This document shows positions 39,419 through 58,294 of a stretch of 64,000 bases of DNA, piece after piece. The first letter of the stretch is position 1; each line of letters begins with the position of its first letter. The position numbers and the translations under genes are program-made. Below the pieces are notes generated by a model. It made no database searches. It saw only the letters and a list, made by a program, of their open reading frames with translations, and had not been told where the DNA came from. The DNA is from Opitutus sp. GAS368 (lineage in GTDB: Bacteria; Verrucomicrobiota; Verrucomicrobiia; Opitutales; Opitutaceae): positions 3,145,001 to 3,209,000 of the forward strand of contig NZ_LT629735.1 of the NCBI RefSeq assembly GCF_900104925.1, read 5' to 3'.

Positions 39419-41653
39419 TTAGGGGGCGGTCAGGGTGAACGGGGCCGAGAGCGCGGCGTTGGAATCGCCGCCGACAAAGACGTCGAAGGCCCCAGGCTCG
39501 GGACCGAACGTCATGTCGGCCCGGCAGAACGCAAGGTCGGCGGGGGCGAGCCGGAAGCTGACTTCGCGGGATTCGCCGGCGGCGAGCGCGATCTTCTCGA
39601 ATCCCTTCAGTTCACGGACCGGCCGCGTGACTGAGCCCACGCGGTCGCGCACGTAGAGTTGCACGACCTCCTCGCCGGCGCGCGCCCCGGCATTGCGGAC
39701 GCGGGCGGTGACGATGAGCGCGGGGCCGCCGGGCTGGAGCACGGGCGCACTCAACCTGAGCGAGTCGTAGGCGAAGGTGGTGTAGCTCAGCCCAAAGCCG
39801 AAGCGGAAGCGCGGCGTGTTGGGGGTGTCGATGTAGTGGGAAAAATACTTGCCCTCCGGGTCCGTGGGCGTGGGCCGGCCGGAATTCTTGTGGGCATAGA
39901 ACAGCGGGATCTGGCCGACGGAGCGCGGCCACGTCACGGGCAACTTGCCGGAGGGATTATAGGCGCCGGTGAGGACATCGGCCAGCCCGGGACCACCCAT
40001 CGAGCCGGGGTGCCAGCCGACGAGGATGGCGTCGACCAGCGGGTCGACGGCCTCGAGGAGGAGCGGTCGCCCGGCCATCAGAAGGAGGACGACGGGTTTG
40101 CCGGTCGCGTGCAGTTCGCGCAACAGCGCCAGCTGCGGTCCGGAGAGGTCGAGCGAGGCGCGGCTGGTGCTTTCGCCGCTCTGGTTCGCGGTTTCGCCAA
40201 GCGCAGCAACGATGACATCGGCGCCGGCCGCGGCCTGGCGCGCGGCGGCAAAGCCGGAGGTGTCATCGCCCGTGGTCAGACAGCCTTGGGCGTAACGGAG
40301 CCGGGCACCCGGGAAAGCTTCGGCCAGCGCGGCGCGGAGGGTCACGACCTCGCTTCTCTCGCCGAGGCCGCTCCAGCAGCCGAGCTGGTCCCCGGCACTG
40401 TCCGCCAGCGGGCCGACAACGGCCACGGTGATCCCGCCGGCCTTGAGCGGCAGCACGCCGTTGTTTTTCAGGAGCACCGCGGAGCGGCGGGCAAGGTCCC
40501 GGGCGGCTTCGCGGTGGGCAGGGGCGAACAGCAGCGCTTTCTCCTGCGCCTCGTCGCAGTTGCGGTAGGGGTCCTCGAAAAGGCCGAGGCGGAACTTCGC
40601 GGCCAGCACCGCGCCGACGGCGGCGTCCAGCCGGGCCACCGGCACGGCGCCGCTGCGGACCAGTTCCGCCAGGTGCTTTTCGTAGCCCTGGGCCTCCATG
40701 TCGACATCGAGGCCGGCGAGGAAGGACTGGCGCGCGGCGTCGCGCAGGTCGGCGACGTTGCCGTGTTCGAGCATTTCGCTGATGCCCTGCCAGTCGGAGA
40801 TGACGAAGCCGCGGAAGCCCCACTCGCCGCGGAGCACGCGGTCGAGCAGGAAGGCGTTGGCCGTGCAGGGGGTGCCGTCGAGGTCGTTGAAGCCCGCCAT
40901 GAAGGTTGCGACGCCGGCGTCCACCGCGGCGCGGAAGGGCGGGAAATAAACGTCGCGCAGGACGCGCTCGGTCACGTCGGTGGTGAAGTAGTCGCGGCCC
41001 GCCTGGACGGCGCCGTAGGCGGCGAAGTGCTTGGCGCAGGCGAGAATGGTGCCGGGCGCGCCAAGCCGGTCGGTCTGGAAGCCGCGGACGCGCGCGCGCG
41101 CGATGGTGGAGCCGAGGAAAGGATCCTCACCGGCGCTCTCGGCGATGCGGCCCCAGCGCGGATCGCGGGCGATGTCGACCATCGGGGCGAAGGTCCAGTG
41201 TATCCCGGTCGCGGACGCCTCGATGGCGGCGATGCGCTCGGCCTGCTCGATGGCGCCGAGATCCCACGAGGCCGCCGTGCCGAGCGGAATGGGGAAGATC
41301 GTCCGGCAGCCATGGACCACATCGAGGGCGAAGAGCATCGGGATGTGCAGCCGGGACGATTCGACGGCGAGCTTCTGCCACTCGCGCGTCTTGGCCGCGC
41401 CATGGACATTCAGCATGCTGCCGGCGCCGCCGGCCTTGATCAGCGGGACGAGCTCGGCCTGCGAGCCCGGGCCGGTCAGAGTGTCGCGGCCGGAATACTG
41501 GACCAGCTGGCCGACCTTTTCCTCCAGGGTCATCCGGGAGAGGAGGTCGCGAACGCGGTCCTCGACGGGCAAGGTGGTGGGAGCGGTGGCGGGGCGGGCG
41601 ATCGGTAGGAGAACCAACATGCTGAGGGAGGGGAGAAGCAGGCGGAGATGCAT
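39419..41653 (-). CDS. GH3 beta-glucosidase, exported
   Basis: 744-aa glycoside hydrolase family 3 enzyme with a signal peptide (MHLRLLLPSLSMLVLLPIA). The N-terminal barrel has the nucleophile Asp287 in FVISDW, the KHF motif (ACAKHFAAYG, about 206-214) and DPRWGRIAES. The (alpha/beta)6 sandwich and a C-terminal fibronectin-III-like domain (GARAGEEVVQLYVRD) follow, giving BglX-like architecture. It should release glucose from beta-linked oligomers, here probably sophoro-oligosaccharides. It is the last gene of the glucan locus, 17 bp after the GH31 gene. Confidence 0.93.
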   Translation of the reverse strand: MHLRLLLPSLSMLVLLPIARPATAPTTLPVEDRVRDLLSRMTLEEKVGQLVQYSGRDTLTGPGSQAELVPLIKAGGAGSMLNVHGAAKTREWQKLAVESSRLHIPMLFALDVVHGCRTIFPIPLGTAASWDLGAIEQAERIAAIEASATGIHWTFAPMVDIARDPRWGRIAESAGEDPFLGSTIARARVRGFQTDRLGAPGTILACAKHFAAYGAVQAGRDYFTTDVTERVLRDVYFPPFRAAVDAGVATFMAGFNDLDGTPCTANAFLLDRVLRGEWGFRGFVISDWQGISEMLEHGNVADLRDAARQSFLAGLDVDMEAQGYEKHLAELVRSGAVPVARLDAAVGAVLAAKFRLGLFEDPYRNCDEAQEKALLFAPAHREAARDLARRSAVLLKNNGVLPLKAGGITVAVVGPLADSAGDQLGCWSGLGERSEVVTLRAALAEAFPGARLRYAQGCLTTGDDTSGFAAARQAAAGADVIVAALGETANQSGESTSRASLDLSGPQLALLRELHATGKPVVLLLMAGRPLLLEAVDPLVDAILVGWHPGSMGGPGLADVLTGAYNPSGKLPVTWPRSVGQIPLFYAHKNSGRPTPTDPEGKYFSHYIDTPNTPRFRFGFGLSYTTFAYDSLRLSAPVLQPGGPALIVTARVRNAGARAGEEVVQLYVRDRVGSVTRPVRELKGFEKIALAAGESREVSFRLAPADLAFCRADMTFGPEPGAFDVFVGGDSNAALSAPFTLTAP

Positions 41654-41670
41654 GGCGGGAGCAGGGAAAC

Positions 41671-43836
41671 TCAGGGTGTGAGGGTGAGCGTGACCGGCTG
41701 GCCGTCGCGCCCGGTGGCCTCGATGGTGCCGGAATCGGTGACAAGCTGGACCACCACGGGGCGCGACGGCCGCGGGCGGAAGCCCTCGGTGTGATCGACT
41801 GTGACCGTAACGGTCCGGCCCTCGCGAACGGCGCGGTAGGTCGTGAGAAGAAAATCACCCTTTTGGTAGCCGTAACCGTCGCCCGCATCCTCGTAGAGGC
41901 GGCCGGCGGCGCGGCCCTGGCCGTCGAGCGAGACCAGCAAGGTCAGCGGGTCAAGGGAGGTTTCGGCCGTGCTCTGGATCACGCGGCCCAGCGGCACGAT
42001 GGCGCCTTCCCGGATGCGAAGGTCGGGGTGGTATTTGTCCTTGGTGGAATTTTCCCCGACGAGGGAGACGGTGCGCCAGTTCCCGTGCGGCAAGGCGGGC
42101 TGGGCGGCCCACTTCGGCACGACGAGCAGATCGTCGCCGACGAGAAAGACCCGGTCCTCGGCGCGCAGGGCGGGGTCCTTCGGGTCGGCAAAGAATACCG
42201 GGCGCATGACCGGCTGGCCGGTGCGTGAGCTCTCCTCGAAGAGCGTGTAGTAATAAGGCAGGAGGCGGTAGCGGCGCTGCAGGGCGGTGCGGGCGACCGC
42301 CTCGACCTCGGGTCCGAAAGCCCAGGGTTCCTTGGGCGGCGTGGACTTCTCGGCGTGGGCGCGGCAAAACGGGAAGAACGCACCGACCGCGACCCAATTG
42401 CCCCAGAGTTCGGGCTCGGCCGTGCCGGTGAAGCCACCGAGATCGGGTCCGTTGAACGGCTGGCCGGAGAGCCCGAGGTTCAGCGTCATCGGGATCGCCA
42501 TGCGGAAATGCTCCCACGTCGACATGTTGTCACCGGTCCAGGTCGCCGCGTAGCGCTGGCCGCCGAGGAAGTTGGCGCGCGTGAGCACGAAGGGGCGCTT
42601 GCCGGGGTTGGCGGCCATGATGCCCTCGCGCGAGGCGCACGCCATCAGCATGCCGTAGACATTGTGGTAGCGGGCGTGCGTGCCGGGGGCGATGTCGCCG
42701 CCGCCGCGGTGCCAGTTGTGCGGCGGCATCGTGCCGCCGGGGACGTTGAAGACGGCGGGCTCGTTCATGTCGTTCCAGACTCCGTCCACGCCCGCTGCCA
42801 TGAAATTCTTGTAGAGGCCGGCCCACCAGGCGCGCGTCTCGGGGCGGGTGAAATCGGGGAAACGGCACTCGCCGGGCCAGACGTCGCCGGCGTAGGGCGC
42901 GTCAAAGGCGCCGTGGACCCACACGTCGGCGGCCGTGCCGGAGGTGTAGGTGGCGTCGGCCGGATCGGCCTTCACGCCGGGATCGATCATCCAGACGCTT
43001 TTGAAGCCGTGCTCGTGCAGGTAGGCGTTGAGGCCGCGCGGATCGGGAAACTCCTTCGGGCTGAACGTAAACACGCGGAAGCCGTCCATGTAGTCGATGT
43101 CCATCCAGAGGACGTCGCAGGGAATCTGCCGCGCGCGGAAGCTGTCGGCGATCTCCCGCACGCGCGCGGCGGGCTGGTAGGACCAGCGGCACTGCTGGTA
43201 GCCGAGGGCCCAGAGCGGCGGCAGGGGCATGTGGCCGGTGAGGCGGGCGAGTTCGCCCAGGACCGCCTGCGGGGAATCGCGGTCGATGACGAGGATGGGG
43301 AATGAGGGGCCGTCGCTGGAGAACTCGATGGAGCCGTTGAGGCTGAGCTCGGTGCCCCAGGTCGTGTCGGCGAGCACGCCAAAGGCCGAGCCGTCGGCGC
43401 GGACGGCGAGCACCCATGGGTGGGACTGGTAGAGTCTCAGGCCGGCGTTTTTCTCGTAGCGAAAGTTGTCGGTGTTCCAAAGCGTGACGGTCCGCCCGTT
43501 GCGCTGGAGCGGGCCGGTGACCTCGCCCGTGCCGTAAAGGCTGGTGCCGGTCTCGATGGCGATGGTGGCGCGGGTGCGGTTTTCGCTGAAGCTGAACTGC
43601 GGCGTCACGCGCCAGCCCGCCGGTAAGGCGCCGCCCGGCCGCGCCGGTTCCAGCAGCGCGAAGGAGTGCGGCACGCGCGCGGGCGGCAGGTCGGCCGGCA
43701 GGAAGAACGCGAGGCCGTCGCCGAGCGTCGCGGCGGTGCCGGTGGCGCGCGGGGCAAAGGTCTCCGCGCAGAGCGGAACGGCGAGGATCGCCAGGAGGGC
43801 CAGGGCAGACCGGGGGAGCAGATTACTGATCTTCAT
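41671..43836 (-). CDS. GH31 alpha-glycosidase, exported
   Basis: 721-aa family 31 hydrolase with a signal peptide (cleavage near PLCAET). An N-terminal beta domain (30-190) is followed by the catalytic barrel with nucleophile Asp356 in DGVWNDMNEPAVF and acid/base Asp436 in TWTGDNMSTW; WMDIDYMDGFRVF also fits alpha-glucosidase-type members. It hydrolyses alpha-glycosidic bonds, which is unexpected in a locus whose other enzymes are for beta-glucan. It lies eight bases after the GH144-type gene and 17 before GH3, so cotranscription is very likely. The substrate (alpha-1,6 branch or other) is not determined by sequence. Confidence 0.92.
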   Translation of the reverse strand: MKISNLLPRSALALLAILAVPLCAETFAPRATGTAATLGDGLAFFLPADLPPARVPHSFALLEPARPGGALPAGWRVTPQFSFSENRTRATIAIETGTSLYGTGEVTGPLQRNGRTVTLWNTDNFRYEKNAGLRLYQSHPWVLAVRADGSAFGVLADTTWGTELSLNGSIEFSSDGPSFPILVIDRDSPQAVLGELARLTGHMPLPPLWALGYQQCRWSYQPAARVREIADSFRARQIPCDVLWMDIDYMDGFRVFTFSPKEFPDPRGLNAYLHEHGFKSVWMIDPGVKADPADATYTSGTAADVWVHGAFDAPYAGDVWPGECRFPDFTRPETRAWWAGLYKNFMAAGVDGVWNDMNEPAVFNVPGGTMPPHNWHRGGGDIAPGTHARYHNVYGMLMACASREGIMAANPGKRPFVLTRANFLGGQRYAATWTGDNMSTWEHFRMAIPMTLNLGLSGQPFNGPDLGGFTGTAEPELWGNWVAVGAFFPFCRAHAEKSTPPKEPWAFGPEVEAVARTALQRRYRLLPYYYTLFEESSRTGQPVMRPVFFADPKDPALRAEDRVFLVGDDLLVVPKWAAQPALPHGNWRTVSLVGENSTKDKYHPDLRIREGAIVPLGRVIQSTAETSLDPLTLLVSLDGQGRAAGRLYEDAGDGYGYQKGDFLLTTYRAVREGRTVTVTVDHTEGFRPRPSRPVVVQLVTDSGTIEATGRDGQPVTLTLTP

Positions 43837-43844
43837 GAAAGGGT

Positions 43845-46091
43845 TTACTTGTCGGGTTGGAAACCGATGGCGCGGAGGGCGGGGGCGATCTCAGGGTTGG
43901 CCATGAAATTCCGCCAGACCAGGCCGGTGCGGTAATTCTCGATCATCACGACGATCGGCGCCTGGTTCAAGGCCATGTAGTCGGGGTCGAAGCGGTTCTG
44001 GGTCTCGTTGAAGCCGTCATAGAACCCGCCGGGACCCCAGATTTTCGGGCCGAGGTCGCGGTAGAAGTGGCGCAGTGCGGCCATCGACTCGTCGGGCGTG
44101 TAGGGCATCGAGGCGAGCGAGGCCATGACGTTGATGGTGCCGTTGTCGTCGCGCGGCAGGGCCCGGCCGCCGCCGCTGTTCACGCCGGCCGAACGGCCCC
44201 AGCAATCGGCGCCGTAGCCGGCGTATTTCCGGGGATTGTCGATGGCGTAGGCCTGCTGGATGAGCGCGATGGCGCGGTTGTTCTTGAAGTAGTTCGTGTA
44301 GCGGTCGCGGAGGCCGCGCGGGTCGAAGCCCATGAAGGAGAAATGCGTGAAGAACAGGTCGGCGCCGTTGCCCTCGCCGACCTCGAGCTTGATGCCGTAG
44401 TAGCTGTGCTCGTTGGTGAAATGGTCGCCCTCGGTCGTGCGGCTCCAGCCCTGGCGGTAGCGCACATGGCGGTCGGACTGCCCGGCCCAGCCGGTGTGCC
44501 ACATGCTGGCGGGCACGGGATGCGTGGGCGAGGCGATGGCGAGAAGATAGATGATCATCGTCTCGTTCCAGCCGATGAGCGGGTGGTTGATATGGAAGCC
44601 GTAGTCGGGCGACCAATGCCAGTAGAGCACGTCGCTGTCGGGTTGCTGGCGATACCAGTCCCACTCGACCTCGCGCCAGAGCCGGGTGGCGGTGTCGCGG
44701 ATCTCGCGCTCGGCCGGCGTGTCGCGATCGAAATACTGGCGGGCGGCGAGCAGGCCCTGGATCATGAAGGCTGTCTCGACCAGATCGCCGCCGTTGTCGT
44801 ATTTGCCGAAAACAGGCATGACCTTGCCGGTGCGGCCGTCGAGGAAGTGCGCCCAGGCCCCGTGGAAGCGGTCGGCCTTGGCGAGGAAGCGCACGATCTG
44901 CAGCATGCGGCCGGCGCCCTGCTCGCGGGTGATGAACTGGCGGTCCGTGGCCACGAGGAGGGCCATGACACCGAAGCCGTTGCCACCCACGGCCATCATG
45001 TTCGGATCGCCGGGCGTGATTTCCGGGGCCAGGCCGGCGTTGGGATGGCCGGCCTCCCAATAATAACGGAAGCAGCCCTCCTGCACCATCGTGAGGAGCT
45101 CGTCGTCGCTGAACTTGCGGGTGGTCGCCCCCGCGGCGTCCGAAAGCGCCGATTCGCTGCCCGCCACGTTGATGGCGCTGACCTTGTAGTAAGCCGGCAC
45201 CCCGGGCTTGCCGGTGAAGTCCTCGTAGCGCGTCCAGCTGCCGCGCTGGGTGCCGACGGCGGTGAAGTTCTTCCCGTCCCATGAGCGGTAGATGCGGTAG
45301 GCGAGCAGGTCGTCCGCGTTGCTGGCCCGCCAGGAAAGGTCGCAATGCTGCTCATAGCCCTTGGCCGCAAGGCCGGCTGGCGCGGCGGGCGTCGTCGTGC
45401 CGGCCGCGGCACCATCGATGATCATGAGATCATCCAGGTAGAGGGTGTGCGGCACGCCGTCATCGAGTCCTTGCGTGAACGTGACGCTGACCGCGTCGCG
45501 CAACCGGAACACACGGTCGCTGGTGTCATGAAAAATCGGATCGGTCCGGCCGAGGGGCAGTTTGACGCGGACCCACTGTCCGGCCGGAATGCGGGCACCG
45601 TCCCGCACGAGCGTGAGCGAATCCGACCCCAGGCCGGTGCGATCCTGCAGGAAAATCCGCGGCGAGTTGGCCTCGGTGATCTCGGTGTCGGCGTAGCACC
45701 AGAACGCGAGGGTGTCGCCCTGCAGCTCGAATTTGCGCCATTCATGCCACGGTGGCCGGAGGATGACGCTCCAGTCGCCGCCCGGGGCGGACTTCCATTT
45801 GAGGCGAAGCGCATTGGGCGGGCTGACGCAATGGTCGCTCGTGGCGGGGATGCGGTGGTTGACTTCCTCGAGCGTGCTCGGGGCGACGACGTAGGTCTCG
45901 CTGTGTGCGTAGGGGCCGTCTGTTGCGGCGTTATCGAAGAGCACGTGCTGGTCATAGAACGCCGCCTGCACGGTCAGAGCGCCAAGCAGGGCGAGCACGC
46001 CGAGGATCGCGCGGCGGAACCGGCGGAGGCCGTCCGGATCGAGGGGGAGGGGCGGATGCGGGAGAGTATTTTTAAGCAGGGAGGTATTCAT
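43845..46091 (-). CDS. Glucoamylase-like family protein, probable GH144 endo-beta-1,2-glucanase
   Basis: 748-aa from ATG 46091. An N-terminal hydrophobic anchor (about 28-43) is followed by a jelly-roll carbohydrate-binding-like domain (about 45-215), a fibronectin-III-like domain (about 225-320) and an (alpha/alpha)6 catalytic domain of the PF10091/GH144 type (325-748). It contains GFGVMALLVATDRQFITREQ, HINHPLIGWNETMI and the closing ENYRTGLVWRNFM. Characterised GH144 enzymes cut beta-1,2-glucan to short sophoro-oligosaccharides. The neighbouring GH94 and GH3 genes support that reading, but family assignment from motifs alone leaves room for another glucan. Confidence 0.82.
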   Translation of the reverse strand: MNTSLLKNTLPHPPLPLDPDGLRRFRRAILGVLALLGALTVQAAFYDQHVLFDNAATDGPYAHSETYVVAPSTLEEVNHRIPATSDHCVSPPNALRLKWKSAPGGDWSVILRPPWHEWRKFELQGDTLAFWCYADTEITEANSPRIFLQDRTGLGSDSLTLVRDGARIPAGQWVRVKLPLGRTDPIFHDTSDRVFRLRDAVSVTFTQGLDDGVPHTLYLDDLMIIDGAAAGTTTPAAPAGLAAKGYEQHCDLSWRASNADDLLAYRIYRSWDGKNFTAVGTQRGSWTRYEDFTGKPGVPAYYKVSAINVAGSESALSDAAGATTRKFSDDELLTMVQEGCFRYYWEAGHPNAGLAPEITPGDPNMMAVGGNGFGVMALLVATDRQFITREQGAGRMLQIVRFLAKADRFHGAWAHFLDGRTGKVMPVFGKYDNGGDLVETAFMIQGLLAARQYFDRDTPAEREIRDTATRLWREVEWDWYRQQPDSDVLYWHWSPDYGFHINHPLIGWNETMIIYLLAIASPTHPVPASMWHTGWAGQSDRHVRYRQGWSRTTEGDHFTNEHSYYGIKLEVGEGNGADLFFTHFSFMGFDPRGLRDRYTNYFKNNRAIALIQQAYAIDNPRKYAGYGADCWGRSAGVNSGGGRALPRDDNGTINVMASLASMPYTPDESMAALRHFYRDLGPKIWGPGGFYDGFNETQNRFDPDYMALNQAPIVVMIENYRTGLVWRNFMANPEIAPALRAIGFQPDK

Positions 46092-46151
46092 GGTGAAGTG
46101 GCGAAGCATTGTTCCACGTTGGTGTGGGAGGCTTCCGGCGCCGCGTGCGCG

Positions 46152-47579
46152 TCACGCCGCGCTCGCGGGGGTGGCGGCTGCCGCCGTCTGACGGGCCTTC
46201 AGCAGGCCCTTGATCTCGTAGGCGCGGGCCTCGGTGAGCGGATACTTGAACACCAGCCACACGCTGAAGAGGCAGAGCGCCGGCGGCAGGCCGATCTCCC
46301 AGGCGCGCAGCCAGAACAGGGTCGCGTCGCTTTGCGTGTGGGCGCCCTCGGCGAAGCCGGTGAGGCGCTGCAGGTAGCCGCTGAGGACGGTGGCGATCGA
46401 GACGGCGACCTTCCACCACCAGTTGTAGACGGCGAAGTAGATGCCCTCGCGGCGGATGCCGGTGGCGAGCTCATCCTCGTCGCAGATGTCGGCGATCATG
46501 GCGTTCACGAGGGAGAAGCCGATCACCATGCCGAGCGAGAGGCAGACGGTCGGGATCATCGTCAGGTAGGGCAGCGCCGGGTTGTAGCAGATGATCTTCG
46601 AGAGGTTGCCGCCGATGATGAGCGCGAGGGCGAAGATCACCGTGAAGCGCTTGCCGTAGCGTTTCGAGAGCCACGCCATCGGGAAGGCGCCGAGAAGGCC
46701 GGTGACGGCCCAGAGCGTGCCGTTGTAGGCCATGAGGGAGGACGCCGCGCTGGTGTTGCCGCCGTAGAGGTAGAAGATCGTGATGTAGTTGTTGAAGCCC
46801 ATCACGAGCTGGAAGGCGACGATCAGCAGCACGAACGCCGACACCAGGCGCACAAAGGTGCCGTTGCGGTAGGTGGTCTTGAAGCTCTCGACGATCGGCA
46901 CGCGGGCCTGGGCGCGGGCCTGGTGGAGCTTGCCCTCCTTGCAGACCAGCGCGCACCACATCGCCGCGCCGGTCAGGATCACGGCCATGCCGAGGCAGAT
47001 CCACTTGATGCCGTTGACGGTGTCGCCGCCGAAGAACGGGCGGTTGGCCAGGTAGTAGACCCACGGCAGGGTGAGAGCGCCGATGTTGCCGATGAAACTG
47101 GCGTAGGCGAAGAGGTTGGTCTTCTCGTGGTAGTCCGAGGTCATCTCCATGCCGAGCGCGCCTTGGGGGATCGCGTAGACCGGGACAACGGTGTAGAAGA
47201 ACAGCGACGTGACAACGAAGTAGCCGAACATCCACTCCTTGCTCCAGTCGCGCGGCACCATCCACAGCATTGCGAACGCGATGCCGATCAGCAGGCCGCC
47301 CGCGATGAGGAACGGGATGCGCCGGCCGAAGCGCGAGCGGGAGTTGTCGGACATGTTGCCGATGAACGGATCGATGACGGCGTCCCACAGCCGGGGGAAC
47401 GCCGAGGCCCAGCCGATCCAGATCGCGCTCACGCCGAGGCCGACGATGTAGACGAGATTCGTGAGCTGCATGACGGAGTTCACCGCCACGATGGTGACGA
47501 CCGCCCCCATGCCGTAGGCGATCTTCTGCGACACCGGAATGCGGTCTTCCGGGGCCGTGACGTGGTTTTGGTGGGGCAT
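46152..47579 (-). CDS. GPH-family (MelB-like) sugar:cation symporter
   Basis: 475-aa membrane protein with about 12 helices of the glycoside-pentoside-hexuronide family. The cytoplasmic loop motif IDPFIGNMSDNSRSRFGRRI and GALGMEMTSDYHEKTNLFAY are typical. It should import di- or oligosaccharides across the inner membrane with Na+ or H+. Located between the GH94 phosphorylase and the GH144-type glucanase, it most likely delivers sophorose-type oligomers to the cytoplasmic phosphorylase. Gaps are 77 bp upstream and 60 bp downstream. Confidence 0.9.
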   Translation of the reverse strand: MPHQNHVTAPEDRIPVSQKIAYGMGAVVTIVAVNSVMQLTNLVYIVGLGVSAIWIGWASAFPRLWDAVIDPFIGNMSDNSRSRFGRRIPFLIAGGLLIGIAFAMLWMVPRDWSKEWMFGYFVVTSLFFYTVVPVYAIPQGALGMEMTSDYHEKTNLFAYASFIGNIGALTLPWVYYLANRPFFGGDTVNGIKWICLGMAVILTGAAMWCALVCKEGKLHQARAQARVPIVESFKTTYRNGTFVRLVSAFVLLIVAFQLVMGFNNYITIFYLYGGNTSAASSLMAYNGTLWAVTGLLGAFPMAWLSKRYGKRFTVIFALALIIGGNLSKIICYNPALPYLTMIPTVCLSLGMVIGFSLVNAMIADICDEDELATGIRREGIYFAVYNWWWKVAVSIATVLSGYLQRLTGFAEGAHTQSDATLFWLRAWEIGLPPALCLFSVWLVFKYPLTEARAYEIKGLLKARQTAAAATPASAA

Positions 47580-50600: not shown

Positions 50601-51112
50601 GTCACGGGCAGGAGGTCGAGATATTGGGAGACGTAGGCCTCATTGTTGCGCACGGCCGCTTCGTCGGCGAGACCGAGGTCCTGCGCGTGCAGCAAGTCGA
50701 CATGTTGTGGAACGGGGCCGGTATTCTTGAGCCGGATGCGCCAGGCCCAGCCGGATTTGGCGGGATGAAGCCCGAAGGACGTGGTGCAGCCGAGCGTGCT
50801 CCCCGCGGGTGAGTGGCGCCAGGTGGCAATGCGACCGTCAGTGGAAAAGCCGGGGCCAGGACCGGCGAGCGGGGCCCAGCCCGCGGGGTGGCCGTTCGCA
50901 TCGGTCCAGCGTACGAGCAGGCGGAAGAGGCCGTCCTCGGCCGGCCCGGGCAGCAGCTGATTGAGCAGCGTCTCGCGGTGCCGCAGGGCGTGGAGGACGC
51001 CGGTGGGCAGCAGCCGGGCGCGCAGGCCGGAGGCGGCGGCGAGTTCCACGATGGCGAAATCAGCGGCGGTGCGCAGGCGTTGGATCGTGGCGATGACTGG
51101 ACGGCTGTCCAT
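47657..51112 (-). CDS. Long GH94 phosphorylase, probable 1,2-beta-oligoglucan phosphorylase
   Basis: 1151-aa cytoplasmic protein (no signal peptide). The C-terminal half is a GH94 (alpha/alpha)6 barrel with WGVRDVCQGSVEWLLAAGEF (about 656-675) and the catalytic aspartate segment NYGDGDWDDTLQ (789-800). The N-terminal half is beta-sandwich. Cellobiose-type GH94 enzymes are about 800 aa, whereas 1,2-beta-oligoglucan phosphorylases (EC 2.4.1.333) are about 1100, which fits. It would cleave sophoro-oligosaccharides with phosphate to glucose 1-phosphate. A run of six CGGG tetranucleotides (49282-49305) lies inside the gene, encoding a Pro/Ala/Arg linker. The GH144 neighbours support the assignment. 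Confidence 0.85.
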   Translation of the reverse strand: MDSRPVIATIQRLRTAADFAIVELAAASGLRARLLPTGVLHALRHRETLLNQLLPGPAEDGLFRLLVRWTDANGHPAGWAPLAGPGPGFSTDGRIATWRHSPAGSTLGCTTSFGLHPAKSGWAWRIRLKNTGPVPQHVDLLHAQDLGLADEAAVRNNEAYVSQYLDLLPVTDARLGHVILARQNQPMAGGRHPWLATACAPAAAAYCTDGWQFFGADHRLTGEPAAVRHHTLPSQRLQYEFALAGLQSRSVTLAPGATTEIVFVAAYLEDHPAASSAADVSLLHDLLPVTWLGADAPVAPPAGGSSIFTAAPWVHGTRPTAADWSAWFPGSRRHEETDSAGRLLSFFHSEGTHVVSRDKEASVARPHGHILRSGEAAWVDDRQFGFTCYAAGIFAAQAYLGNPSLARLLSVVRNHLNVARASGQRVFLRRGGAWQQLGVPSAFAMETGAVRWIYRLDDRVIVARAWCSGREPASFLELQVLSGPPAEFLVTHQLALGANEFESAGEIEVHDDGCIFARPAASSFTARHLPGTCFALAAASADSLAAHGGDELIHVDGVARQGPYAAFQTKPVDRCAFCLLGTTDGGTALPGAVARVRGEYDAARPPARPPAAPLRLHGSADAGVARLDEILPWFTHNAAIHFSAPHGLEQYGGAAWGVRDVCQGSVEWLLAAGEFATVRRILTAVFEQQYAHHPKEPAVAGCWPQWFMFPPFRFIQQAHSHGDVCFWPVKALCDYLEASNDLAFLRTELGYTDPATFTATGPADTLWAHCDRVIAHCEARFVPGTALVNYGDGDWDDTLQPADPAMRTRMVSAWTVGLAFHAFRQLAEVSRCAGETARAARLDTLLGRMRADFLAHAMPGGTVAGFLVHEADGRFRPLLHPSDRVTGIRYRLLPMTRSILAELFTPDEARHHARLIESELRFTDGVRLMSEPATYQGGLERLFKRADTAANVGREVGLQYVHAHLRYAEAMARLGDAERLWQALQVVNPVGLARVVPGAVARQGNVYFSSSDADFANRPEASARWPELRAGRVPVRAGWRLYSSGPGLYLHKVRACLLGLRESFGDVIFDPVLPRSLDGLTADTHLLGRPVQLVFSVRQGTSAPRAICVNGTLLTGVSREPNPYRPGGLRVAGAVLAPLLAAEGNRVEIEL
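49282..49308. repeat. (CGGG)6 tetranucleotide tract inside the GH94 gene
   Basis: Six consecutive CGGG units followed by CGG. On the coding strand it encodes repeating Pro-Pro-Ala-Arg around residue 605. Gain or loss of one unit would shift the frame upstream of the catalytic half. Confidence 0.8.
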
Positions 51113-51244: not shown

Positions 51245-54097
51245 TTAGAACGAGAGAGTCACCGAGGCGGTGATTTTTCTCGGGGCGACCATATTATAGT
51301 CCATCGGCTGGGACTGGCTCGAGCCGTAGCCCGCGTAGTTCAGGAAGACGAGGGTGTCTTTCCCGAACAGGTTGTCCACGTTGACCTGGAACTTGGCGTG
51401 GATCTTGGAATCCATGGCATTGAAGACCGTGGAATACCGGGCGAGCACCGAATAGGTGGTGTAGCTGGGTGACAGCGTGCGCTGTCCGTTGACCGAGTCC
51501 CAGGGATTGCCGTATTGCTGCCCCAAGGAAGTCACACCCGCGCCGAGTTCGAGCCCCTTCAGGCTGTTTTCCGTGAAGGAGTAGGTCCCGAACGCGTTGA
51601 AGATGTACTTCACCAGGTGGCCGGTGGTGACCGGCACGGCCACCGCCGCGATCCGGCCTTGGGCATTGGTCAGGTCCGAAGCCAGTTTCGTGCTGGCGGG
51701 GGAGGAGCCGCCGGCGGCAGCCTGCCAGATCGACAGGTTCTGCGCGAAGTAGGCGGCCGCGTTCGGACCGTCATTCGTCTTCTCGCCCTTCGGGGCGGAA
51801 TAGTGCAACTGCAGCCGGAAGTTCTTCGTCGGGTTTGCCGTCACCTCGAATTCGAAGCCGGTGTATTTCACATCGTAGGTGTCCGCATACGACATGTTGG
51901 CGTGGTAGGTGCCTGCGCCGCCCGTTACATTGCCGGCCGGCCCGATGGCGGTGGTGGTGCCGCCCGCCGCGAAGTAGTCGTTCCAGATGCCTTGGAAATC
52001 GGGGCTGTCGCCGCCAATGATGTCGTGCGAGGTGTCGTTATACCAATTCGCCGAGGCATAGTATTTGCCGTCCTTGGTGGAAACGCGCAGGCCGATATTC
52101 TTGCCCTTGCCGAACGACGGGCCAAACACCTTGCCGAAAAGGCTGGGGGCCAGGCCACCGGCCGCCGGCTGGTAGTTTTCGGACAGGTTGCCGACCACGC
52201 CGAGCCACTCGGTGACATAGCCCACGAACCCGGCGGAGTAGGTGTTGCCCGAGCCGCTGGAGATCGTCGGCGTGTTGCTGGTGCCGCGCAGGCCGACCTT
52301 CCAGTTGTCGTAGGAGTCGTGCCGCAGGCCGAGGGAGATGTTCAGGCGGTCGTCCCAGAGGCGCGTCTGCGAGAATCCGCCGAAGTATTTGATGGTCTGC
52401 TTCGAGTTGAAGTCATACCAGTTGAACGGGAGCGGAACGTAGGCGATGTTCTGGCCGTTGACGGCGGTCGGGACATTGAGCGCGGCCTGGGGGTTGTCCC
52501 AATAGACGCGGCCCCACAGCATGGTCTGGGTCCAGTTGTTCGGGTCGTAGTTGTTCAGAACCTGCGCCTGATACTGGCGCGCATTGTATTCCGTCTCCTG
52601 CTGGCCAGCCGACACACTGAAGAGCTGCTTGATCGGGATATTCCTCACCGTGGTGTCGAAGTGATAAGAATACTGGCCGCGGACCTCTTTCACGGAGTGA
52701 TCCTGGGTCTGGGCATCGAGGAAGAAATCCGAGAACAGTTTGCCGTAATTCGGATTCGTCTGGCCGTTCGGCAGCTGCTTGTTGAGGTCGTAGGCCACGC
52801 CATAGCCGTTGCCACCGCCGGCGCCCTCGAAGTTCTTCGCCTTGGCGTCGTCAACATAGCGATAGCCGGAGATCGCAAACTCGCTGTTGTCGTTGATCTG
52901 GTGCTCGAAGCTCAGGGTCATGTTCAGGTTTTCGGGCTTGAGGAGTCCGTCGGCCGGACTCACGGCGAAACTCTTGCTGGGCAGCGCCATGATGTTCGTG
53001 CCGGCCGGATTGGCCAGGTAGTAGGTGAAGGGCGTGGGCCGCAGGTAGGCGCCCCAGTTGACGTCACCCGTTCCCATGGAACGCGTGCCTCCGCCCCAGT
53101 TGAACAGGCCGACGCTCGGGGTCCAGACTTGGTAGTTTTGCGGACCGCCCCAGGCACCCATCGTCGTGACGCCGGGAGCGCCGGGCGTGTTGATCGGATT
53201 GGACCCGGAGTTGGCGATGGCCGCGCCCCACGTGGCGGCACTGGTGTTCTTGTCCCACAACGAGGTGCCGTCCTGGATGGTTTGGGCGAATACGGTCTTT
53301 TCCTCCTTCCAGCCTTCGATCTCGAACCGCACCTGCGTGTGGTCGGAGAACTTCCAGGTGGCGGCCAGGTCGACGGCCTTCTTCTTGTGGTTGTCGCCGT
53401 CCTTCCAGCCTTTTTCATTGGCGACCAGGGCGTTGAGCCGTAGCGCGAGATGCTTGTCGAAGCCGACCTCGTTGGCGTCAAACGTGGCCCGATAGCCGCC
53501 ATAGTTGCTGGTGGTGAAGACCGCATCATAGAAGTCCTTATCGAACCGCGCCTGCTTGGTGTAGGTGGCCATGCTGCCGCCGATGTCACCGATGCCGAAC
53601 AGGATCGAGTTGGGGCCGCTGTCGAACTCGATGCGGTCGACATTGTAGGTGTCCTGCACCATGAACGTCGGGAAGTAGTTCTTGGTGGGCGGATTGCCGC
53701 CTTGCACATGGCTGTCGCCACGGATGCTGATCGACCAGAAGTTGAACACTTCGCCGCCCGACGCGCCGGAGATGCCGTTGCGGAAATCCGTCGGAATGGC
53801 GTTCAGGGACCACTTCAGGGCGTCCTGCACGTTGGTGAGGGACAGATCGTTGATGAACTCCCGTGTGATCGACGACATGGCTGCCGGTGTTATCCGGATG
53901 GGCGAGTTCTGCCGGCCGCCGGACAGGGAATCGACGGCGATGTAGCCGTTGTCCTTCTCGGTGTTGACGGTGAACGTCTCCAGCACGAGCGGTTTTTCGT
54001 TGTCAGCGGCCGCCGGGGGAGGCGAAGCCGTCTGGGCCATTAGCGAGGCTGTGGTGGCCAGCGCCAACGCGATTAGCTTTGGTGTGTATGTTTTCAT
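51245..54097 (-). CDS. TonB-dependent outer-membrane receptor of the glucan locus
   Basis: 950-aa outer-membrane protein with a signal peptide (MKTYTPKLIALALATTASLM, cleavage at AQTA). A TonB-box-like LETFTV segment is at about residues 39-44. The plug domain (about 55-200) has VDRIEFDSGPNSILFGIGDI, and the C-terminus is a barrel of about 22 predicted strands ending in ITASVTLSF with the terminal Phe. There is no carboxypeptidase-like extension and no SusD gene. It presumably imports large glucan fragments. It lies 73 bp after the large GH144-type gene and before GH94 on the same strand. Confidence 0.93.
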   Translation of the reverse strand: MKTYTPKLIALALATTASLMAQTASPPPAAADNEKPLVLETFTVNTEKDNGYIAVDSLSGGRQNSPIRITPAAMSSITREFINDLSLTNVQDALKWSLNAIPTDFRNGISGASGGEVFNFWSISIRGDSHVQGGNPPTKNYFPTFMVQDTYNVDRIEFDSGPNSILFGIGDIGGSMATYTKQARFDKDFYDAVFTTSNYGGYRATFDANEVGFDKHLALRLNALVANEKGWKDGDNHKKKAVDLAATWKFSDHTQVRFEIEGWKEEKTVFAQTIQDGTSLWDKNTSAATWGAAIANSGSNPINTPGAPGVTTMGAWGGPQNYQVWTPSVGLFNWGGGTRSMGTGDVNWGAYLRPTPFTYYLANPAGTNIMALPSKSFAVSPADGLLKPENLNMTLSFEHQINDNSEFAISGYRYVDDAKAKNFEGAGGGNGYGVAYDLNKQLPNGQTNPNYGKLFSDFFLDAQTQDHSVKEVRGQYSYHFDTTVRNIPIKQLFSVSAGQQETEYNARQYQAQVLNNYDPNNWTQTMLWGRVYWDNPQAALNVPTAVNGQNIAYVPLPFNWYDFNSKQTIKYFGGFSQTRLWDDRLNISLGLRHDSYDNWKVGLRGTSNTPTISSGSGNTYSAGFVGYVTEWLGVVGNLSENYQPAAGGLAPSLFGKVFGPSFGKGKNIGLRVSTKDGKYYASANWYNDTSHDIIGGDSPDFQGIWNDYFAAGGTTTAIGPAGNVTGGAGTYHANMSYADTYDVKYTGFEFEVTANPTKNFRLQLHYSAPKGEKTNDGPNAAAYFAQNLSIWQAAAGGSSPASTKLASDLTNAQGRIAAVAVPVTTGHLVKYIFNAFGTYSFTENSLKGLELGAGVTSLGQQYGNPWDSVNGQRTLSPSYTTYSVLARYSTVFNAMDSKIHAKFQVNVDNLFGKDTLVFLNYAGYGSSQSQPMDYNMVAPRKITASVTLSF

Positions 54098-54170: not shown

Positions 54171-56888
54171 TCAAATGAGGCGGACCCGGCCGAGCTGGTA
54201 GACGCCGGCGCGCAAGGGATGGTAGGACCAGTTGAGCTTGAGCGTGGGCTCCCACTCCTTGGTGCCTTCGGAAATGGCCGCCGGGGTCAGACCGAATTCG
54301 AGGCCGGTTTTGGGCATAAGGCCGAGGCTCGCCCAAGGAATGACGGCCTCGATGGTGTAGCCATGGGCCGTCGGGGTGATGCTCGCCTCGTTGGGCGCAT
54401 GGTGATACAGTTCCTGCGCGCCGATGCCGACCCGGTAAGTGAACTGGTAATCGCCAGGGCCGGTCCACACGAGACCGTCGCCCGCGGAGTCGATGAAAAG
54501 CTCGACGATGCGGTTGCGGCCCACCGGCACCTCATAACCGGCCGGGGCATCGGTAACGTCGGCGTGGAAATGCAGGGCGGCGGCGTCCCAGGTGACGGCA
54601 AAGCGGAATTCGAGCGGCGCATCGCCCGGCCGGACGTCGGCGTCGGAGTCCTTGAACCCGAGACCCGCCACCGTCTGCCAGTCCCATAGGTCGCGGGGCA
54701 AAGCCTGTTCCACGGCCCGGGCGAAGCGTGGCGGCGGGGGCGGCGGGGTCCCGGCGAGCTCGCGCTGGGCGATGAGGGAGGTATTGGGACCGAACGCGGC
54801 CTCGCCAAACTCGGCGATGGCCGCGCGACCGGTCCGCACGAGCGGATCCTGCTGGAAGGCCTGCCGGATGGCGTCATGGACGAGCAGATTGGCGGCGGTG
54901 ATGAGGCAGGCGGCGGCGGCTTCCGGCGTGGCAGGAGATGGGGCGGGCGTCGCAAAGGTCTCGCGCGGGAATTGGTCGAGCTGCAGCACCGCGAGCAGCG
55001 GGCTGGCGGGGACTTTCTCCGCGGTGAGGCTGGCGTAAGCGAGCTGGGAGGCGGAGGCGCCGGACAGGATCGCCCGTTCGTCGAGCCACAGGCCGGGCAG
55101 CAAGGCCCCGGCGGCGTCGGCCGGCGCAAGGACCTGGACGTTTCCGAGCGTCAGCGTCGCGCGGTCCAAGCTGCGCCAGTCCGCGGCCGGGCGGGTGCCC
55201 GCGGCGATTTCGAGGAAAACTGCGAGCCGGGACGCGGCTGCGAGCTCGGGCCCGGGGGCGGGCAGGGACTTCCAGTCGATGCGATCCAGTTGACGCGTCG
55301 CCTCGGGGGCGAGGGCGGGGATCGCCTGACGGAGGGTGATGAGCGCCGCGGCATATTGCGCGGTTTCCACCGTCCCGACCGGGACCGGGCCGGCGGCGAG
55401 CCGGGTGCCGGCGTCCGCGAGCATCTCGTTGGCGTTGACCAGGCCCAGCAACTGGGCGGAGAGCAGGGCGGTGAGCTGCAGCCCGGCCGCGGCCGGCTGC
55501 GCCTGGAGGGAGTGCCAGGCGGCGGTGGCCCGGGCGAGCAGCCCGGCCTCCTGCTCCGGGTCCAGCGTGCGCGCCGTGGAAAGGAATCCGGCCTTGGCGA
55601 GGGAAAGCTTCGCCTCCGGCGATTGCATGAAGAGACGCCAGACGAGCCCCGTGCGGAGGTTCTCGGCCTGCAGCACCGAGATGCCGAGGTCGATGCCCAG
55701 CACGTCGGCATTCACCCAGCCGGTCTGGGGATTGAAGGCGTCGACGAAGCCATAGTGTTTCCACAGCCGGTCGCCGTAGACGGTGCGGAGGTGGTGGAGC
55801 ACGGCGAGGGTTTCGCGGGGGGCAAAGGGCAGGGAGCCCGCCGTGGCGCAGGGCACGATCGTGCCATCGAGCGCGTTGTAGCGCAGGGTCCGCGGCGGAC
55901 CGCCCCAGGCCTTGTAGCCGGTGGCGGAATCGGAGGCGGTCAGGCCCCAGAGATTTTCGCCCCAGGCGGGGAATTCGGGCCGGAGATCAAGGCTGAACTG
56001 GCGCTGCGCGAGGGTGGCCAGCCGGGTGTTCTGGAAAAAATCGACGAAGGCGTCGCGACGGCCGCGCAGGTCCATGAAGGCCTGGGGAAACTGGTTCACG
56101 AAAAGCGGCGGTTCCTGCAGGTAGACGTAATCGCCGTAGCGCCCGACGGGACTGCGGCGCCAGGTCTGCCAGTAGCCGGCCTCCAGCGGCCGCGGGGAAG
56201 AGCCGAGGGCGAGCAGGCTCATCAGCACATGCTCGGAATACTGGTTCCAGCGGTAGCGGGAAAACCCCGTTTCATCATGCCAGGCCAGCGAGACCAGCGG
56301 CCCGCCGTTGCGGAACCACGGCCAGTCGACGTCGTCCAGCAGGCGGTTGACCAGCGCCGTGACCGCGGGATCGGCGAAATATTCGCGGGCCACGATCGCC
56401 CCGGCGTAGAGCAGGGCGGAATCGATGGAGGAAACTTCGCAATTCCAGGCGCGGGCCCCGGTGTCCATTTCCATGAAATGGTAGAAGAAGCCGTGCTGGC
56501 GGGGTGCCCGGGCGGCGAGGAAGTCCAGCATGGTCCGGACGTGTTCCAAGGCCTCGCCGCGGGAAACCCAGCCGCGTTCCACGGCGATCGGCCAGGCTGC
56601 GAGAGAAAACCCCGAGGCGGCGATACTGGCCTTGCCCTCGCTGGGGGAACCGTCGGCGCGGGCGCGGTCCCGGACCAAGCCGGTGCGGGGATGCGATTGC
56701 TCGACGAAGAACCGGAAGCCCGCGCGCTCGATATCGTCGAGCAGCCGGTCATCGGCCGGGCTCAGCGCCACCGTCGATGACGCCGCGGGCCCTGCGCCCG
56801 TTGCGGTCGCGCCTTGCAAGAACAAGGCAATGCACGCGGCGCCCAGCGGGGATACCGCGAAAGAGCGGAGGGGCATGCCTAAGAGCAT
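54171..56888 (-). CDS. Large glucoamylase-like (GH144-type) protein with C-terminal CBM9-like domain
   Basis: 905-aa from ATG 56888 (ATG 56876 or TTG 56903 are alternatives), with a hydrophobic signal sequence. The PF10091/GH144-type (alpha/alpha)6 domain (about 45-430) has GFRFFVEQSHPRTGLVRDRA, ETGFSRYRWNQYSEHVLMSL and AENLRTGLVWRLFM. A helical region of about 280 residues with no recognised family follows, then a CBM9/DOMON-like beta domain (about 750-905) with ALHFHADVTDAPAGYEVPVG and YTIEAVIPWASLGL. It probably binds and cuts glucan at the cell surface or in the periplasm. It is the first enzyme gene after lacI, 317 bp away. Confidence 0.78.
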   Translation of the reverse strand: MLLGMPLRSFAVSPLGAACIALFLQGATATGAGPAASSTVALSPADDRLLDDIERAGFRFFVEQSHPRTGLVRDRARADGSPSEGKASIAASGFSLAAWPIAVERGWVSRGEALEHVRTMLDFLAARAPRQHGFFYHFMEMDTGARAWNCEVSSIDSALLYAGAIVAREYFADPAVTALVNRLLDDVDWPWFRNGGPLVSLAWHDETGFSRYRWNQYSEHVLMSLLALGSSPRPLEAGYWQTWRRSPVGRYGDYVYLQEPPLFVNQFPQAFMDLRGRRDAFVDFFQNTRLATLAQRQFSLDLRPEFPAWGENLWGLTASDSATGYKAWGGPPRTLRYNALDGTIVPCATAGSLPFAPRETLAVLHHLRTVYGDRLWKHYGFVDAFNPQTGWVNADVLGIDLGISVLQAENLRTGLVWRLFMQSPEAKLSLAKAGFLSTARTLDPEQEAGLLARATAAWHSLQAQPAAAGLQLTALLSAQLLGLVNANEMLADAGTRLAAGPVPVGTVETAQYAAALITLRQAIPALAPEATRQLDRIDWKSLPAPGPELAAASRLAVFLEIAAGTRPAADWRSLDRATLTLGNVQVLAPADAAGALLPGLWLDERAILSGASASQLAYASLTAEKVPASPLLAVLQLDQFPRETFATPAPSPATPEAAAACLITAANLLVHDAIRQAFQQDPLVRTGRAAIAEFGEAAFGPNTSLIAQRELAGTPPPPPPRFARAVEQALPRDLWDWQTVAGLGFKDSDADVRPGDAPLEFRFAVTWDAAALHFHADVTDAPAGYEVPVGRNRIVELFIDSAGDGLVWTGPGDYQFTYRVGIGAQELYHHAPNEASITPTAHGYTIEAVIPWASLGLMPKTGLEFGLTPAAISEGTKEWEPTLKLNWSYHPLRAGVYQLGRVRLI

Positions 56889-56965
56889 TGCGGTCCGGTG
56901 CAAAGGGGTAGTGGTGTGTCTTGGCCGGGACGAAAAGCCCCGACCGGGGGTGATGTCAGGTTGAA

Positions 56966-56979
56966 TGACAACGTTTGCA
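56966..56979. promoter_or_regulatory. Candidate LacI operator 1
   Basis: TGACAACGTTTGCA, two mismatches from the ideal palindrome TGCAAACGTTTGCA with the central CG conserved, as usual for LacI-family operators. It lies 78 bases upstream of the large GH144-type gene start. Confidence 0.6.
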
Positions 56980-57133
56980 TCGCAAGCTAAAAAAATGCGG
57001 CAACGCTTCGACGACCGGCCACAGTGCCCGGATTACCCTGGATCCAATCCCTCTCTCAAATACCTGCAATCCAGCCTATCTGGGGCATCGAACCCATCCG
57101 GCCTTAGGTGATTACCCACGGCCGGTAATAAAA

Positions 57134-57147
57134 TGAAATCGTTTGCA
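57134..57147. promoter_or_regulatory. Candidate LacI operator 2
   Basis: TGAAATCGTTTGCA, also two mismatches from TGCAAACGTTTGCA and sharing the CGTTTGCA half exactly with site 1. The centre-to-centre distance to site 1 is 168 bases, about 16 helical turns. Confidence 0.55.
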
Positions 57148-57205
57148 GGTGAGCCAGGGCAAGCCGCAGGCCGGTGCTCATTTGGGCGGGTTCATCCACC
57201 GGCGC

Positions 57206-58294
57206 CTATTTGCGGTCGGTCGGTCGGAGGGGCCGGGTTGAGTCGCGGATCATCATGGGCGCAGGCATGTCGTCGGATACCATCCGGCGCAAACGTCCTG
57301 GATCATTGGCCGCCTCGACAATCAGACCCACGGCGCGCTCGGCCAGGTCGGCCAGGGGTTGGCGGATGGTGGTGAGGGCCGGCTGGCAGGCCGTGGCCCA
57401 GATGCCGTCGTCAAAACCGACAATCGAGATATCATCCGGGCATCGCACGCCGGCCAGGTGGGCGGCATGCACCGCCCCGAAGGCGATCTCGTCATTGGCG
57501 CAGCAGATGGCGGTCGGCCGTTCGGGGCCCTCCAGGAACCGGGCAATGCCGGTGCGGCCGGTCTCGGCGCTGAAAGACCCGCTGTAGATCCATTCCGGCC
57601 GGGGCATGGCTCCCGCCGTCTGCAGCATCTCGAGGTAACCCTGCTTGCGCTCGTGCGCATCGCGCGAGCCTTCGGGACCGAGCAGCAGGCCGATGCGCCG
57701 GTGACCCAGTTGCAGGAGCAGGCTGGCCACGGAGCGGGCGCCGGCGAGGTTGTCCACGCCCACGACCGGCACGCCCAGGTCGCGCACGCTGGTGTTTTCG
57801 GGCAGGGTGGACTTGGTCAGCACGAAAGGGCGGCGGAAGCCCCGGAGCTGTTCCAGCTCCATTTTGCTGAGCGGTTCGGCCAGGTAGATGATCCCGGAGG
57901 AATCGAGGCTCAGGTGCTGCATGGCCTCCCGGAAATTGGCGCTTTCGTTGCGGCGCATGGTGGAGATTTGCACGCCCCAGCCCCGGGCGGCGGCGGCGTG
58001 CAGGGTGCCCGCCATGAACCGGCCGTAGTATTCCGAAAAGAAAATATTCTCATCCAGCGGCACGACCAGCGTCAGGGTGGCGTTGGCCCCCTTGCGCAGG
58101 ATGCGCGCGCCGGGATTGGGGGAGAAATGCTGCTTTTCCGCCAGGTCCATGATCTGTTTCCGGCGGTCGGGGCGGACCAGGTGCGCGGTTTCCGGCCGCA
58201 GGGCGCGGGAGACCGTGGAGGGCGAGACACCCAGGCTGGCGGCAATCTGCACGATGCCTGTCTTGTCGAGGCGCGGTGCGCGATAGCGGGGCAT
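57206..58294 (-). CDS. LacI-family transcriptional regulator of the glucan locus
   Basis: 362-aa regulator. The N-terminal helix-turn-helix is GIVQIAASLGVSPSTVSRAL (13-32) with hinge helix, followed by a periplasmic-binding-like ligand domain (about 70-350) with VVGVDNLAGARSVASLLLQL and ICCANDEIAFGAVHAAHLAG. It should repress the downstream glycosidase, receptor and transporter genes and be released by a sugar, possibly sophorose. Candidate sites with a central CG lie at its own start (58294) and upstream (58330), suggesting autoregulation. It is on the same strand as the locus. Confidence 0.93.
   Translation of the reverse strand: MPRYRAPRLDKTGIVQIAASLGVSPSTVSRALRPETAHLVRPDRRKQIMDLAEKQHFSPNPGARILRKGANATLTLVVPLDENIFFSEYYGRFMAGTLHAAAARGWGVQISTMRRNESANFREAMQHLSLDSSGIIYLAEPLSKMELEQLRGFRRPFVLTKSTLPENTSVRDLGVPVVGVDNLAGARSVASLLLQLGHRRIGLLLGPEGSRDAHERKQGYLEMLQTAGAMPRPEWIYSGSFSAETGRTGIARFLEGPERPTAICCANDEIAFGAVHAAHLAGVRCPDDISIVGFDDGIWATACQPALTTIRQPLADLAERAVGLIVEAANDPGRLRRMVSDDMPAPMMIRDSTRPLRPTDRK

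Follow-up and report, generated by a model that had tools for sequence, protein, structure and literature searches.

Beta-1,2-glucans have roles in osmoregulation, symbiosis and bacterial infection (PMC12102758), yet little is known about the bacteria that consume them. The closest described gene cluster is the IALB_1185 cluster of Ignavibacterium album, which according to the sections of its source on this cluster comprises two genes of glycoside hydrolase family 144 (GH144), a GH3 gene, a GH94 gene similar to 1,2-beta-oligoglucan phosphorylase (SOGP), a TonB-dependent transporter that the authors proposed without biochemical evidence, an ABC transporter and a GH35 transglucosylase (PMC8861115); the discussion of that paper describes the cluster as lacking a beta-glucosidase homologue, which contradicts its own introduction, where the GH3 is listed. 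An SOGP and a Lin1840-type GH3 are also found together in Listeria innocua (lin1839-1841), where import is by an ABC system with a Sopn-binding subunit and where the passages describing the genes name neither a TonB receptor nor a GH144 (PMC12369401, PMC4757417). Here we analyse a stretch of 64,000 nucleotides from the genome of Opitutus sp. GAS368 (contig NZ_LT629735.1, positions 3,145,001 to 3,209,000; "the window"), which carries what is very probably, as judged from its sequence, an operon under LacI control through which this Opitutaceae (Verrucomicrobiota) bacterium feeds on external beta-1,2-glucans. It combines a known enzyme logic with a different transporter, a regulator and operator of its own and a GH31 as new elements: where the I. 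album cluster has an ABC transporter and a GH35 enzyme, the window has a GPH symporter, a GH31, a LacI-family regulator with an operator and a GH144 that bears a family 9 carbohydrate-binding module (CBM9). The polysaccharide utilisation loci of Bacteroidota pair SusC with SusD and resemble the window locus in joining a TonB-type receptor to co-located glycoside hydrolases, whereas the window locus has no SusD. Among the papers listed by literature searches, none has a title on a verrucomicrobial beta-1,2-glucan locus.

The locus is a run of eight open reading frames (ORFs) on the minus strand at 39419-58294, with all coordinates as in the initial annotation, which had listed the genes as LacI, GH144, TonB receptor, GH94, GPH symporter, GH144, GH31 and GH3 in one direction. 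The ORFs and their Pfam matches in the same reading order (Peripla_BP_3/LacI; PF10091; TonB plug; SOGP_N, SOGP_2nd, SOGP_4th and GH94 domains; MFS_2 for the GPH symporter; PF10091; GH31; GH3) bear this out. From the large GH144 through the GH3 the intergenic gaps measure 73, 132, 77, 42, 8 and 17 bp, which fits a single operon, and we treat these genes as one predicted transcription unit. In reading order, the features are:

57206..58294, minus strand: LacI-family regulator, 362 aa (Peripla_BP_3 111.9 bits)
58294..58307, minus strand: weak operator-like site over the LacI start (2 mismatches)
57134..57147, minus strand: weak operator-like site between the LacI and GH144 genes (2 mismatches)
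56966..56979, minus strand: predicted LacI-type operator TGCAAACGTTGTCA, 62 bp before the TTG start of the large GH144
54171..56903, minus strand: large GH144, probably endo, with helical middle region and C-terminal CBM9-like domain; 910 aa from the TTG start, 905 aa from the Met at codon 6 (PF10091 214.1 bits, CBM9_1 26.1 bits)
51245..54097, minus strand: TonB-dependent receptor, 950 aa, without SusD partner (Plug PF07715 29.9 bits)
47657..51112, minus strand: GH94 of predicted SOGP type, 1151 aa (SOGP_N 195.5, SOGP_2nd 155.8, SOGP_4th 38.6 bits; 5h3z 631.8 bits)
46152..47579, minus strand: GPH-family sugar:cation symporter of the inner membrane, 475 aa (MFS_2 187.5 bits; TIGR00792 157.8 bits, below its cut-off of 231)
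43845..46109, minus strand: second GH144, of the BDI_3064 kind, probable exo-enzyme; 754 aa, or 748 aa from the Met at codon 7 (5z06 645 bits)
41671..43836, minus strand: GH31 alpha-glucosidase-type enzyme, predicted to be secreted, 721 aa (PF01055 399.3 bits; 5djw 902.5 bits)
39419..41653, minus strand: GH3 beta-glucosidase, predicted to be secreted, 744 aa (PF00933 221.7 bits; 3u48 681.2 bits)

The substrate is indicated most clearly by the GH94. Its sole PDB match at E<=0.001 is LpSOGP (5h3z, 631.8 bits), and all three SOGP domains exceed their Pfam cut-offs (PF21958 195.5, PF21250 155.8 and PF21270 38.6 bits). By residue mapping, the pocket residues of LpSOGP, a list of 17 drawn from the structural sections of PMC5309861, are identical in the window GH94 at 17/17 positions; the same source lists H924 and S1006 as counterparts of phosphate-site residues rather than as contacts. 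The catalytic acid D760 of LpSOGP corresponds to D797, and the Y141/R907 pair, which hinders cellobiose-type binding in LpSOGP (PMC5309861), is kept. Across the rows of 18 relatives 14 of the 17 pocket positions are invariant, with variation at 157 (N 16, S 2), 160 (Y 13, F 5) and 652 (G 17, S 1); duplicate rows (L005, L006, L014, L015 and L021) were omitted from the residue-conservation alignments. The prediction that this enzyme has SOGP specificity is therefore strongly supported by its pocket residues. A cellobiose or laminaribiose phosphorylase, the alternative that the initial annotation had singled out, was rejected because LpSOGP stands alone in the PDB at that threshold and the pocket is of SOGP type. 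No signal peptide is visible at the N-terminus, which was judged by eye, so the SOGP is probably cytosolic.

Both GH144 proteins point the same way. The large one finds its best PDB match in XcSGL (8xul, 215.5 bits), and its E224, D161, F268 and Y330, which align with E211, E142, F268 and Y330 of CpSGL, do not vary among 10 close rows; when the set is widened to 14, the position of D161 holds D in 13 rows and E in one. In clan GH-S, as the clan comparison in PMC12102758 describes it, the acid E as well as the F and Y are conserved throughout and the base candidate is acidic (E142 in CpSGL). CpSGL residues D135 and D139 are not kept in the large GH144, which has V157 and a gap there; the same source reports that conservation across the clan does not extend to these two and that mutation of either also harms CpSGL (PMC12102758). 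Beyond the fold family, the acid and base-candidate positions and the clan-defining F and Y that it shares with CpSGL and XcSGL, the large GH144 is extended by a helical region and a CBM9-like domain, whereas the tail of XcSGL is annotated as disordered (PMC12102758). A Foldseek search with its model matched GH144 structures and a CBM9 (1i82). We rejected its placement in a newer family, given that XcSGL, its best match, is called a GH144 (PMC12102758) and that PgSGL3 of Group 3 (8xuk) reached just 45.9 bits, and likewise a placement in Group 1, whose EeSGL1 (8xuj) matched by fold alone; Group 2 had no structure for comparison. The large GH144 is probably an endo-beta-1,2-glucanase.

The second GH144, whose closest named relatives are mostly Opitutaceae or Opitutae, carries D438, D442, E445 and E516 in 21/21 rows and has GWNE and DNGGDLVE as its acid and base motifs, the two motifs checked there. 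Its residues 53-747 align with residues 7-699 of 5z06 (645 bits, N-terminal domain included), that is, with BDI_3064 of Parabacteroides distasonis, which we take to be the sophorose-releasing exo-type GH144 described in the literature. BDI_3064 comes from another phylum and shares full-length architecture and catalytic motifs with the window protein in a comparison that did not extend residue by residue to the exo determinants. Exo-type GH144 enzymes with this architecture of N-terminal domain and barrel release sophorose, as the relevant parts of two papers describe (PMC8861115, PMC11842490). From the end-to-end alignment and this architecture, the second GH144 is probably a sophorose-releasing exo-enzyme rather than an endo-enzyme, and the pair would probably be one endo- and one exo-enzyme. 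The initial annotation had cast both as endo-glucanases, which holds as a probable reading for the large protein and probably fails for the one of 754 aa. The acid and the base candidate are present in both proteins, the point on which that annotation had made its GH144 assignment depend, so inverting beta-1,2-glucan hydrolysis is predicted for both; together with the 17/17 pocket match of the SOGP, this supports the beta-1,2-glucan substrate class that it had proposed.

For the GH3, the best PDB match is 3u48 (JMB19063, 681.2 bits), followed by Lin1840 at 507.7 bits; JMB19063 has been placed in the Lin1840 clade in the phylogenetic part of PMC4757417. Its nucleophile D287, its acid/base E494 and its subsite +1 arginine R593, the counterpart of the arginine that Lin1840 is described to use for sophorose (PMC4757417), are present in 48/48 rows. 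Lin1840-kind enzymes also accept laminaribiose in the accounts of PMC4757417 and PMC12369401, and the GH31 suggests alpha linkages, so one might suppose that the operon is meant for a different glycan, such as beta-1,3-glucan or the sophorosides of plants or yeast, with the beta-1,2-glucanases acting on side structures. We consider this highly improbable, given that a single operator (see below) links GH144 and SOGP, both of them beta-1,2-specific families, and that no beta-1,3 or beta-1,4 endo-glucanase family is among the Pfam matches of the operon.

To see how widely the predicted beta-1,2-glucan operon occurs, we surveyed 372 genomes of the order, the window's included, with at most two SOGP candidates per genome scored in the first pass. 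An SOGP of at least 1100 bits (hereafter close SOGP) is present in 14 of them, again counting the window's; three more genomes have weaker ones at 733-751 bits and two have a split or partial match. In a phylum-wide sample, 26 of 387 genomes, window included, hold an SOGP at E<=1e-100. Neighbourhoods were taken as 20-kb stretches around the 14 close SOGP genes, with the window itself for its own genome and an extra 12-kb stretch for genome G262. They contain a LacI-family gene in 13 cases, a relative of the TonB receptor in 13 (window included), a GPH symporter in 12, an exo-type GH144 in 8, a GH31 in 5, another GH144 in 11 (one being a fragment at the edge of a stretch) and some GH3 in 11. 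After the GPH gene, six of 14 related loci encode a secreted protein of no obvious family (c1), about 1,065 aa long, with an F5/8-type C domain and a six-hairpin barrel (L133:14279-17473, L129:8362-11568, L135:3984-7163, L136:3-2939, L137:13337-16522 and L138:13661-16861; the count excludes a 220-aa ORF of L134 in the same cluster). It matches PF17389 at 29.2 bits in L133, over the cut-off, and at 21.6 bits in L129, under it; no PDB match was better than E 0.29, and a model built from 6 rows was poor (pLDDT 55). We regard it as a candidate for a new enzyme for beta-1,2-glucan.

The regulator is probably the repressor of the operon, as predicted from its family and position. Its ligand-binding part is clearly of the LacI family, and the DNA-binding model PF00356 alone falls slightly under its cut-off (24.8 vs 27 bits). 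The putative operator TGCAAACGTTGTCA is an imperfect 14-bp palindrome that lies 62 bp ahead of the first enzyme gene; with 0-1 mismatch it is the single such site in the genome, which consists of one contig of 4,150,783 bases, and with up to 2 mismatches the window has 3 sites against 0.20 expected. A promoter scan gave one site, on the opposite strand, against 1.4 expected. The core of TGCAAACGTTGTCA is common to 10 of the 18 upstream stretches examined. The degenerate form TGCAAAYGTTGTCA (C or T at position 7) is found in 17/372 order genomes, namely in 11 of the 14 close-SOGP genomes and in 6 of the 358 others, whereas a reversed-pattern control occurs in 2/372; the association of operator and SOGP has a Fisher p of 1.8e-13, window genome excluded. 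All 18 operator sites in the 11 close-SOGP genomes adjoin genes of the beta-1,2-glucan locus. Four of the 18 lie away from the main locus, of which three head a further GH144 (G361, G215 and G207; start codons provisional) and the fourth (G293) is flanked by a GH144 fragment and a TonB receptor. The G293 GH144 (L190:7712-8575) has just its C-terminal part in one frame and may be broken or misassembled. Among 13 listed LacI matches, the helix-turn-helix VSPSTVSRALRPETAHLV is identical in five (L133, L134, L135, L136 and L141), has 1-3 substitutions in L137, L140 and L131, and reads ISVSTVSRALRPETAHLV in L132; the stretch was not in register for L130 and L138, and the regulators of L142 and L144, which have distant SOGPs and no operator in their stretches, differ more. 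The predicted LacI operator appears to be conserved together with its regulator.

The absence of SusD, which the initial annotation had put forward as a distinctive trait, is real for the locus and ordinary for the organism: the genome has 47 TonB plugs and no SusD-like_3 (PF14322) match, the one SusD model that was searched genome-wide. The lack of SusD is thus a genome-wide state, and we rejected it as a peculiarity of this locus. The TonB receptor at the locus comes in two lineages, 46-62% and 36-41% identical to the window's; by contrast, the SOGP stays 54-78% identical within the family. The receptor seems to have been exchanged.

In the mechanism that we propose, the repressor would leave the operator when a sugar inducer appears. 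The CBM9-bearing GH144 would then cut the glucan to oligosaccharides at or outside the outer membrane, a chemistry suggested by family and residues at a place that we presume, and the TonB receptor would import the products. Signal peptides, judged by eye, are clear on the GH3, the GH31 and the second GH144 and weaker on the large GH144, so that much of the digestion would be periplasmic and hydrolytic, with the SOGP treating whichever chains enter the cytosol. On the periplasmic side, the exo-GH144 would take sophorose off non-reducing ends, the GH3 would split sophorose and short chains to glucose, and the GH31 may remove an alpha-linked feature of the glucan. The GPH symporter would carry sugars into the cytosol, where the SOGP, its specificity strongly supported by residues, would phosphorolyse chains of at least three units to glucose 1-phosphate and sophorose. 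The window locus has no GH3 without a signal peptide, and the cytosolic beta-glucosidase that the remaining sophorose needs would be encoded elsewhere; a candidate is an unlinked GH3 without signal peptide in the same genome (G000:C1:2452377-2454599, 41% identical). Homologous loci L129, L134 and L138 do have a GH3 without signal peptide, which adjoins the SOGP in L134. The "self-contained" route of import and phosphorolysis that the initial annotation had described is too strong a claim, because the locus lacks such a GH3.

Several observations weigh against a beta-1,2-glucan operon of this kind or against parts of the evidence for it. Among 20 further genomes from the window's genus, a single one has a full-length SOGP, and the operon is therefore an accessory trait. 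The stretch of G023 holds the SOGP and GPH genes alone. The operator is missing in 3 of the 14 close-SOGP genomes (G023, G094 and G187), with a 2-mismatch site before the TonB receptor in G094, whereas the G023 and G187 stretches yield no site even when 2 mismatches are allowed. Conversely, six genomes without a close SOGP carry an operator site, and no locus homologue lies near the four of these six sites that were inspected. The genomes are related and not independent, which makes the Fisher p-values too small. The signal peptides were judged without a predictor, and the AlphaFold model of the large GH144 (10 rows) has a mean pLDDT of 62 with a weak catalytic part.

A different use of the same enzymes would be the recycling of the cell's own osmoregulated periplasmic glucan, made by OpgG and a GT2 synthase and degraded when osmolarity changes. 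The genome does have one OpgG (PF04349, 616 bits) that adjoins a GT2 protein and keeps both catalytic aspartates (pair at G000:C1:3650543-3654773, or L146:9543-13773), and the organism probably makes such a glucan. The TonB receptor and the carbohydrate-binding module on the first glucanase, however, point outward, and the operon SOGP is found in just the 1 of 20 other genus genomes, so we judge recycling to be improbable. The OpgG was also considered, and rejected, as a maker of alpha-1,6-cyclised glucohexadecaose, because W76, D343 and R477 of XccOpgD, the indicators given in the sections of PMC11228985 on this activity, are Y, L and V here; family GH186 is described there as occurring mainly in Proteobacteria.

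The initial annotation had listed the GH31 in the locus and assigned it no role. Feeding on external beta-1,2-glucans seems to involve it in some species. Its closest solved structure is 5djw (902.5 bits), presumably BT_3299, and D356 and D436, which we take to be its catalytic residues, are found in 10/10 rows. BT3299 lies in a mannan regulon and was guessed to be an alpha-mannosidase in the passage of PMC3878776 that mentions it. In our survey, which scored at most three GH31 candidates per genome, relatives at E<=1e-150 occur in 10 of the 372 order genomes, window included, and a class-wide sample of 384 genomes (E<=1e-200) added five more. The GH31 might be an unrelated alpha-glucosidase gene placed in the operon by chance, and it is indeed found in just 5 of the 14 close-SOGP loci of the order (window included) and in 2 of 80 loci found with the exo-GH144, one of these (L006) being a duplicate record of L130; in G184, moreover, a GH31 of 986 bits lies on a different contig from the SOGP. 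Against this, the five GH31 proteins of at least 1087 bits, window included, all sit in SOGP loci and form one clade (support 93/98, recovered in 94% of the 200 bootstrap trees, although the rule of the program gave it no star), whereas ten relatives of 808-996 bits have no SOGP or GH144 in stretches of 15-20 kb (0/10); the tree kept two rows with very long branches and omitted L006 as the same record as L130. SOGP and GH31 are associated with a Fisher p of 2.6e-6, own genome excluded, and in G064 the genes for exo-GH144, GH31 and LacI form a run behind an operator (L130:19686). A chance placement is unlikely in our estimate, and because of the locus-linked clade, the SOGP association and the G064 run, these comparisons indicate that the GH31 is part of the beta-1,2-glucan diet in some species and not a chance neighbour. 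In a Bacteroidales genome (UBA6207, L031), a GH3 and an SOGP-like gene stand together with three GH144 genes and with a GH31 that is more distant (344 bits), perhaps an independent case of a GH31 with beta-1,2-glucan genes.

Outside the operon, the locus is flanked by housekeeping genes on the plus strand, priA at 37167-39398 and a Mur ligase at 58447-59880. A 522-aa ORF at 58444-60012 on the minus strand was rejected as a gene, having no Pfam match and being an antisense shadow of the Mur ligase gene.

The alpha bond on which the GH31 would act may be the one that closes a ring. An alpha-1,6-cyclised beta-1,2-glucan is described as the ring sugar of some plant-associated and photosynthetic Proteobacteria, and XccOpgD makes the alpha-1,6 closure according to the enzymological sections of PMC11228985; this closure is the alpha bond reported for beta-1,2-glucans in the literature covered here. 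The GH31 perhaps serves this bond. A bolder version, which we offer tentatively and regard as rather doubtful, is that the GH31-bearing operon is built for alpha-1,6-cyclised beta-1,2-glucan, with the GH31 clade removing the alpha-1,6-linked feature after GH144 has opened the ring and leaving a beta-1,2 chain for the GH3 and the SOGP. The parts of the literature covered by our search name no enzyme for removing this feature. If this were true, the alpha-1,6 linkage would set apart two diets of neighbouring Opitutales, and the GH31 link offers a concrete way into the degradation of alpha-1,6-cyclised beta-1,2-glucans. The predicted operator, for its part, allows the genes of this diet to be found from sequence alone, and in three genomes it has already led to additional GH144 genes that lie on other contigs.

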